In this document: positions 24,088 through 30,231 of the stretch, one piece after another
Numbering within the stretch: the first letter of the stretch is position 1
How the letters are laid out: each line of letters starts with the position of its first letter
Assembly: GCF_002056295.1 (NCBI RefSeq)
Contig: NZ_CP020100.1
Span: 2,999,501 to 3,063,500, forward strand
Direction: 5' to 3'
Length of the DNA stretch: 64,000 nt
Source: Halopseudomonas phragmitis
Lineage (GTDB): Bacteria; Pseudomonadota; Gammaproteobacteria; Pseudomonadales; Pseudomonadaceae
Notes under the pieces: model-generated
Databases searched by the model: none
What the model was told of the DNA's origin: nothing
What the model saw: only the letters and a program-made list of their open reading frames with translations
Translations under genes and position numbers: made by a program

Positions 24088-26397
<2,310 letters not shown>

Positions 26398-26416: not shown

Positions 26417-26427
26417 GCGTGCCTGGA

Positions 26428-26532
26428 CGGTGTTGTACTACGGCTGTTCCGGGCACGCACAAGTACTTCCCTGTAGCTCTTCGATGCCATCCCTGGCATC
26501 GAACGGCCCGGAACAGCCGTAGCACAACACCG
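26428..26532 (+). repeat. Hairpin element copy 1: 51-nt core in 27-nt self-complementary arms
   Basis: The left arm 26428-26454 (begins CGGTGTTGTACTACGGC) pairs with the right arm 26506-26532 at 26 of 27 positions. The core 26455-26505 contains a hairpin TTCGATGCC-ATCCCT-GGCATCGAA and a smaller TAC-TTCCCT-GTA hairpin. The predicted fold is therefore a three-way junction closed by a long stem. Confidence 0.85.
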
Positions 26533-26604
26533 CCCTACCAGTTCCGTGCATAATCGCATTCAGATTACTGCTGGAACGTGGACTGACCAACTCAGACCTC
26601 AAGA

Positions 26605-26711
26605 GCCGACTGCCTGTCCCCATATCCTGGACCGTTCGATGCCAGGGATGGCATCGAAGAGCTACAGGGATGTACTTGTGCGTGTCCAGGATATGGGGAC
26701 AGGCAGTCGGC
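26605..26711 (-). repeat. Hairpin element copy 2: same core inverted, different arms
   Basis: The left arm 26605-26632 (begins GCCGACTGCCTGTCCCC) and right arm 26684-26711 are perfectly complementary over 28 nt. The core 26633-26683 is the reverse complement of the copy 1 core with one difference in 51. The arms have no sequence similarity to those of copy 1. In this orientation the small hairpin reads TACA-TCCC-TGTA. Confidence 0.85.
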
Positions 26712-26778: not shown

Positions 26779-27945
26779 ATGTCCGACCTCCCACTGCTTG
26801 GCAACCTCACCCCAGAACAGTTCCTGCGCGACTACTGGCAGAAAAAGCCCCTGCTGATTCGTCAGGCAGTACCAGGCTATGAAAGCCCTATCAGCCCCAA
26901 TGAACTGGCAGGACTGTCGCTCGAAGAAGAGGTTGAGTCGCGGATCATTCTCGAGCACGGCCAGCACCCTTGGGAGCAGCGCCGAGGCCCCTTTGCCGAA
27001 GATGCCTTTCAGAATTTGCCAGAGCGTGACTGGACACTGCTGGTTCAGGCCGTAGATCAGTTTGTCCCGGAAGTAGCCGAGTTGCTCAAAGCCTTCGACT
27101 TCCTGCCCAGTTGGCGCAAGGACGACATCATGATCAGCTACGCAACGCCGGGTGGTGGTGTCGGGCCGCACTATGACAACTACGACGTATTTCTGCTGCA
27201 AGGGCAAGGTCGCCGGCGCTGGAAAATTGGTCAGCACTGCGACGAAAACAGCCCGCTGCTCGACCATCCTGATCTGCGCATCCTACGCGACTTCGAACAG
27301 ACGGATGAGTGGGTACTGGAGCCTGGCGACATGCTTTACATCCCGCCAGGTGTCGCCCACTGGGGGACCGCTGAGGATGACTGCATGACCTTCTCGGTAG
27401 GCTTTCGCGCACCCAGCCATGCCGAAATTTTGTTGCATTACACTGACTTCGTCAGCCAACAGTTGGGTGACAGCCTGCGCTACAGTGATGCAGGCATGAC
27501 GCCAGTCGAGGATCCCGCCAGCATTGATGAGCAGAGTATCGACCGGTTGCAACAAATTTTGCGCCCACTGGTCGAAGACAGAGAGGCATTGGCCACCTGG
27601 TTCGGACGCTTCATGACCGAGGCGCGTTATCCGGAACTGATACAGCCTCAAGAGTGGGAAGCAGCCGATTTGCTTGCATTGCTTGAGGCTGGGTACGGTT
27701 TGATACGTCACCCAAGTAGCCGTCTGGCATGGCGCAAAGGGAAAAATGACAGCTTGCGGCTGTTCGCCAGCGGCGAGCATTGTGAGCTGTCAATTTCCTT
27801 GCTGCCACTGGTTCAGCTAGTCTGCAAACAGGACTACCTTGAAGCCGGAGCCCTGGAGCCGTGGTTGCAGCAGGAAGATGCACGGGAATTGCTGGTGCAA
27901 TTGCTCAACAAGGGAGAACTCCTGCCGGAGGAGGATGATGAATGA
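26779..27945 (+). CDS. roxA: Ribosomal protein uL16 arginine 3-hydroxylase (YcfD/RoxA-type cupin)
   Basis: This 388-residue Fe(II)/2-oxoglutarate oxygenase hydroxylates an arginine of ribosomal protein L16. The JmjC/cupin core carries the metal triad His131, Asp133 (GPHYDNYDVF) and His194 (IPPGVAHWG), with the substrate-side segment TPGGGVGP before it. The C-terminal winged-helix region follows from about residue 290. MSDLPLLGN at 26779 is the family start; a longer opening to 26743 runs into the repeat region and is rejected. It overlaps the acetyltransferase gene by eight bases. Confidence 0.92.
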   Translation: MSDLPLLGNLTPEQFLRDYWQKKPLLIRQAVPGYESPISPNELAGLSLEEEVESRIILEHGQHPWEQRRGPFAEDAFQNLPERDWTLLVQAVDQFVPEVAELLKAFDFLPSWRKDDIMISYATPGGGVGPHYDNYDVFLLQGQGRRRWKIGQHCDENSPLLDHPDLRILRDFEQTDEWVLEPGDMLYIPPGVAHWGTAEDDCMTFSVGFRAPSHAEILLHYTDFVSQQLGDSLRYSDAGMTPVEDPASIDEQSIDRLQQILRPLVEDREALATWFGRFMTEARYPELIQPQEWEAADLLALLEAGYGLIRHPSSRLAWRKGKNDSLRLFASGEHCELSISLLPLVQLVCKQDYLEAGALEPWLQQEDARELLVQLLNKGELLPEEDDE

Positions 27946-29858: not shown

Positions 29859-30231
29859 TGCCCCGCTCCCGCTAGCCAGAGACTCTGAATGAGCCTCCGG
29901 ATCGGCTCCGAAACCAAAGGACCGATGCGTGTCACAACAGCCCAGAAGGCGGTTCGACGAGGTGGCGACTGGAACGAAAGTTGTCCTGAGGGACGGGGAA
30001 GCGATTTAACGTATCAGCCTGCATGACAGGTTTAGCCAGTCCGACACATGTCCCAAGTGACGAGTCGGTGGCACGGTCATCGTCTGTTCGTCACAGCCCC
30101 CATTCTGAACGGACTATCTGCTTTCTTCCTCCAGTTTGCCCTTCCTATGTCAACCCTTGACGGCAGTTCCGTTTGGCGGGAACAGGGTCACAAATCGTGC
30201 TGAACCTACTGCAAACTGTGAAGGATTGACC

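Follow-up and report, generated by a model that had tools for sequence, protein, structure and literature searches.

In the 64,000-nt stretch of Halopseudomonas phragmitis DNA analysed here (the window; NZ_CP020100.1, positions 2,999,501 to 3,063,500), the spacer separating purB and roxA holds two hairpin units that are inverted relative to each other and together form one doublet (26425-26711; Table 1). The upstream neighbour, which ends at 26397, is presumably purB; the downstream neighbour, with its ATG at 26779, is taken to be a JmjC-type gene, named roxA in an earlier note on this DNA. Both assignments come from the open reading frames (ORFs) and family features. The earlier note described two copies of a structured core, each enclosed in long self-complementary arms that are unlike between the copies, and this observation is confirmed. 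The inverted cores are identical at 50 of 51 positions. The arms are 30 nt and 93% complementary in copy 1 and 28 nt and 100% complementary in copy 2, with both imperfect pairs in copy 1 reading G-U on the minus strand, and the left arms of the two copies, read on the same strand, are equal at 12 of 28 positions. As the note had proposed, each unit is multi-branched; folding gives a long stem carrying two hairpins for either unit on either strand, with z-scores of -9.4 to -12.1 and none of 200 shuffled sequences as stable. Both units are real, but they are better read as paired halves of a single doublet than as two separate copies, a layout that is usual for the family in the host genus. Model R2 finds exactly two units in the window, both in the doublet. 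The octamer CATCCCTG alone is not enriched in the window (4 observed, 3.5 expected) and is meaningful only within the hairpins.

Table 1. Parts of the purB-roxA doublet, in window positions. G022 is a relative carrying the same doublet; the CANGGANG strand is the strand on which the hairpin loops read CANGGANG.
Feature	Positions	Strand	Details
Copy 1 outer arm	26425..26454	.	Pairs with 26506-26535; repeat search and pair list against G022
Copy 1 core, 51 nt	26455..26505	-	CANGGANG strand is minus; R2 match of 81.1 bits at 26435-26524, minus strand
Copy 1 second hairpin loop	26466..26473	-	CAGGGAAG on minus, CTTCCCTG on plus
Copy 1 first hairpin loop	26488..26495	-	CAGGGATG on minus; stem 26480-26503
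Copy 1 other arm	26506..26535	.	Repeat search
Spacer separating doublet halves	26536..26604	.	
Copy 2 arm	26605..26632	.	Pairs 28/28 with 26684-26711
Copy 2 core, 51 nt	26633..26683	+	CANGGANG strand is plus; R2 match of 84.2 bits at 26613-26704, plus strand
Copy 2 first hairpin loop	26643..26650	+	CAGGGATG; stem 26635-26658
Copy 2 second hairpin loop	26665..26672	+	CAGGGATG; GCUACAGGGAUGUAC
Copy 2 other arm	26684..26711	.	Repeat search

It is almost certain that these units belong to a dispersed structured repeat family. Searching the single-contig host genome (G000) at the DNA level yielded 14 good matches to the core (L001-L014), 11 of which made up a first covariance model. This model matched 28 of 37 genomes of the host genus, with 9 to 71 matches each. 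A second covariance model, made from 118 units of 78 chosen loci, matched 48 of 276 evenly drawn gammaproteobacteria, representing 44 of 216 genera, in a class-wide scan with stricter filters that scored no more than 15 candidates per genome. Carriers include Marinobacter vulgaris, Xanthomonas nasturtii, Zobellella maritima, and a metagenome-assembled genome of the Chromatiales. The tentative mention of CATCCxTG loops in gammaproteobacteria in the earlier note was therefore correct. No description of the repeat was found in the open-licence PubMed Central (PMC) literature.

A sequence-pattern search of contigs gave 8 matches, which do not serve as a count of the family, and 4 of these fit model R2. 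A doublet is carried by an Enterobacter chuandaensis plasmid. The consensus of one Rfam family, Ysr224 (Yersinia sRNA 224, RF02770), contains the same core as the repeat, and a Ysr224-like copy used as query matched 17 of 72,556 plasmid records and 5 of 5,426 E. coli genomes; the three of these matches that were inspected share one common neighbourhood. Due to these plasmid copies and the Enterobacter doublet, the description of the family as 'chromosome only' was dropped. There was no match in the plasmid records for the window doublet or three other units, nor in the phage records for the window doublet. A contig from a viral collection has a Ysr224-like unit (L343:6208-6300).

Among the fetched loci, 55 of 60 pairs of units separated by less than 450 nt are divergent, minus-plus; this count was made from the best-scoring loci, and weak partners may be overlooked in it. 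Direct rows of units, spaced about 340-380 nt, are seen in three genomes (G016, G020, and G029).

Across the family, a core of about 52 nt is conserved, and the two arms change in concert, their sequence being little constrained. When 118 units are aligned, in an alignment fitted to the model and hence leaning toward it, 91.9% of cells pair and 31 of 35 pairs have changed on both sides; the covariation score is 0.772, compared with 0.169 in shuffled alignments and at most 0.103 when the partners are slid. When arms were clustered at 60% identity over the inner 24 nt, the 213 units of the host genus fell into 38 clusters and the 67 units from outside it into 47. The proposal that each copy has arms of its own is thus borne out in part. 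Many copies in the host genus have common arm families, whereas sharing is looser in genome G113 (15 copies in 9 clusters, arms 28-40 bp) and genome G247 (12 copies in 8 clusters, arms 19-49 bp). A related unit in G247 (L283:1877-2029) has perfect 34-bp arms and an 85-nt core with additional hairpins. No core lacking paired arms was encountered, although the arms are part of the search models themselves. The family offers a clean natural example of structure kept without sequence, useful for benchmarking covariation methods.

The imperfections in the arms distinguish the two strands. On the CANGGANG strand, the non-Watson-Crick pairs of 211 stems (13 of 224, shorter than 18 bp, being left out) are 246 G-U, 32 A-C, 98 G-A, and 9 C-T. 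Limiting the effect of common ancestry leaves 42 G-U against 2 A-C in the 38 genus clusters and 55 against 14 in the 67 units from outside the genus, and among non-redundant units opposed to both neighbouring genes the ratio is 28 to 3. An excess of G-U over A-C is not expected from symmetric mutation or from correction of one arm by the other; it is expected if one strand folds, as RNA or as single-stranded DNA. The fold of the CANGGANG strand has therefore very probably been under selection. Together with the covariation, this supports one explanation given in the earlier note, that of a structured element with selected stems.

Among the 277 units with cores of 46-58 nt (3 of 280 fall outside this range), 263 carry CANGGANG in hairpin 1, 274 in hairpin 2, and 260 in both hairpins. 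In either hairpin, no position of the GGA is altered in more than one unit, and both N positions vary; in L003 and others, hairpin 2 reads GUACAGGGAUGU. The distance between the two GGAs is 20 nt in 239 of the 277 units and 19-21 nt in 276. The sequence 5'CANGGANG3' is named as the Rsm-binding motif in PMC6849547, and PMC7652899 gives RUACARGGAUGU, with the GGA in a hairpin loop, as the consensus from systematic evolution of ligands by exponential enrichment. According to the latter review, a single CsrA dimer bridges two sites separated by 10-63 nt, with an optimum above 18. Both loops in 260 of 277 units match the published motif, and the spacing in 276 of 277 lies within the bridging range. 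Eight units (L040, L054, L055, L058, L061, L119, L141, and L240) have additional structured inserts exactly in the loop region of one hairpin; similar hairpin inserts with a GGA loop of their own recur across genomes, and hairpin tips look like insertion targets.

Selection on one folded strand does not by itself identify the molecule, which is with moderate probability RNA. It is possible, if on the unlikely side, that the folded molecule is single-stranded DNA, with hairpins that serve as recognition sites for a transposition or recombination enzyme, in the way RAYT transposases recognise REP sequences, the doublet as the mobile unit, and the likeness to CsrA sites due to chance. The fixed divergent arrangement of close pairs would suit such an element, as would the high copy number (three to six tens in several genomes) and a strand bias of the imperfections that is independent of neighbouring transcription; folded DNA also tolerates G-T and G-A mismatches. 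Against it, all six fixed positions of the Rsm motif are matched in both loops, and the enzymes do not follow the repeat. Of the genus genomes, 28 have units and 9 do not; Y1 transposase genes occur in 25 of the former and 7 of the latter, and reverse transcriptase genes in 11 and 5, respectively. The surroundings of 18 Y1 genes in unit-bearing genomes, out to about 2 kb, contain no confident unit (best 17.4 bits), so that the arrangement typical of REP/RAYT, a repeat flanking a RAYT-type Y1 gene, was not found. A RAYT or reverse transcriptase as the mobiliser was rejected, due to this absence of association. By eye, one Y1 subtype is apparently commoner in unit-bearing genomes.

On the strength of the loop sequences and their spacing, CsrA/RsmA is the putative ligand of the module, a proposal that stands at about even chances, and a dispersed structured-RNA module docking CsrA/RsmA is, at similar odds, the preferred explanation of the family as a whole. 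In such a module, the CANGGANG strand would act as RNA, the long stem would present both loops, and these, 19-21 nt apart, would each be gripped by one face of a single CsrA/RsmA dimer. Once transcribed, the module could sequester CsrA/RsmA or recruit it to the transcript, and a divergent doublet would provide any transcript crossing it, in either direction, with exactly one CANGGANG-strand module. If CsrA/RsmA is the ligand, certain genomes contain tens of scattered docking modules of high quality for this global regulator, which would amount to a chromosome-wide sponge instead of two or three small RNA (sRNA) genes.

The units are intergenic, except for 5 flagged within predicted ORFs, and the spacers bearing them are convergent in 75 cases and divergent in 21. 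For these counts, and for the units opposed to both neighbouring genes, gene directions are those of a custom-built predictor, and a small number of overlapping loci are counted twice. Several results count against the docking proposal. In same-direction spacers, the CANGGANG strand runs with and against the genes in 27 and 12 cases in the genus (two-sided p 0.02), 12 and 15 outside it, and 39 and 27 when pooled (p 0.18). As there is no clear orientation bias, a role within the mRNA of the neighbours is not supported. A consensus scan found no promoter or terminator near the window element. Ysr224 is the one transcribed relative found, and its model describes the strand opposite to CANGGANG, which speaks against the simple view; all 8 of its weak matches to the units are likewise on the strand opposite CANGGANG. 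The Ysr224 model leaves out the second arm and contains nothing that marks it as a repeat. CsrA (PF02599) is present in 47 of 48 unit-bearing genomes, but 18 of 20 genomes that lack units have it as well, so its presence does not discriminate, and the unit-bearing genome without detected CsrA (G211) is 98% complete. According to PMC7652899, binding of CsrA is perhaps disfavoured by very stable stems. The search models favour cores like those of the seed, and copy 2 of the doublet in the relative G022 has one new A-C mismatch.

At the purB-roxA site, the doublet is present in 2 of 30 loci compared, those of G000 and G022, whose purB genes are 94% identical. Three arm pairs have changed on both sides between these doublets, one pair has gone from Watson-Crick to G-U in G022 and two in the reverse direction, and the GGA is kept. 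The spacers at the other loci are too divergent to tell which arm came first. Other sites recur across species with different arms. The gabT-gabD spacer has a unit in all five species compared (L012, L114, L188, L235, and L241), with unlike arms and in both orientations, and the same is seen for arms at metK-ahcY, at gcvT-gcvP, and beside rplQ.

In G113, four copies have identical 52-nt cores within unrelated arms of 33-37 bp. At the best offset, the arms of these four agree at 0.40 to 0.53, with a shuffled mean of 0.48; over all 105 arm pairs in this genome the mean is 0.51 and the maximum 0.72, against 0.48 and 0.63 when shuffled, and a few of the pairs may be related. Since the other G113 cores differ, the four identical cores should share a recent source that is not common to their arms. 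From this comparison we infer that cores are converted or spread by themselves; the combination of identical cores with unrelated arms calls for a mechanism that moves the core without its ends. A stronger form, in which an RNA module of about 52 nt moves or is converted without its stem and each time enters or builds a private, perfectly paired stem, as a mobile CsrA/RsmA docking module with sequence-free arms, is unlikely.

These copies would also be accounted for if copying makes the arms: the end of the core folds back (inner GAC with GTC) and DNA synthesis copies one side into the other, making or correcting private perfect arms. The perfect private arms of up to 49 bp in G247 and the frequent inner GAC/GTC are in line with this, as are the four G113 cores. 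Plain copying, however, yields no bias of G-U over A-C, and the GC content of the left arm exceeds that of the 80-nt flank in 24 of 26 units from G113 and G247, and arm GC does not track local flank GC. Copying as the source of the arms is accordingly rather improbable, and the idea put forward in the earlier note, of an insertion event that duplicates adjacent DNA as an inverted arm, is without support. Relatives of G247 and G113 gave no empty site close enough to inform on this, the nearest being about 70% identical.

It is very improbable that the units are ordinary miniature transposons with the core as passive cargo lacking a function of its own. Many G000 units, single ones, do lie inside elements of about 173 bp with shared terminal inverted repeats, GGAAACACTGATTAA, which has 38 forward and 40 reverse matches in G000 with up to two mismatches (backward control 0) and whose end pairs include forms of 161-174 bp, longer ones of 250-301 bp that hold nested inserts, and deletion forms of 71-86 bp. 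By eye, these ends are absent from the window doublet, L012, and the G113 and G247 copies inspected; the core and its covariation are kept across families, and the arm imperfections are strand-biased.

Miniature repeats such as REP/REPIN, ERIC, and NEMIS are intergenic, occur in many copies, and form inverted pairs and hairpins, as does the repeat described here. They keep their end sequences, whereas this repeat keeps its tip and varies its arms. The sponge RNAs RsmX/Y/Z and CsrB/C have paired GGA hairpins that bind CsrA/RsmA (PMC4383904 and PMC4333381), as is predicted for the repeat, and unlike it they are single genes; their Rfam models gave no match to the window element. Other Rfam matches below the gathering score are mostly to microRNA models, which reward any long hairpin. 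The sole family reaching its gathering score in the window is the SrbA sRNA at 29875-30089 (+), with 111.9 bits.

Closest in design is the TwoAYGGAY RNA (RF01731), listed in PMC2864571 as a probable RNA from gut samples, gammaproteobacteria, and Clostridiales. The units had no cmscan match to it, at the gathering score or in the lists of weaker matches, and unlike it the repeat has tens of dispersed copies, mostly doublets, with arms of 19-49 bp. The Ysr224 model reached 31.7 bits at best on the units, below its gathering score of 70, which places them outside that family as defined; nevertheless, comparison of the sequences makes it likely that the two cores share descent. One distant member of the family thus appears to be already known in Rfam, and what the present analysis would add is the dispersed, mostly doublet form of a two-hairpin CsrA-type RNA design.
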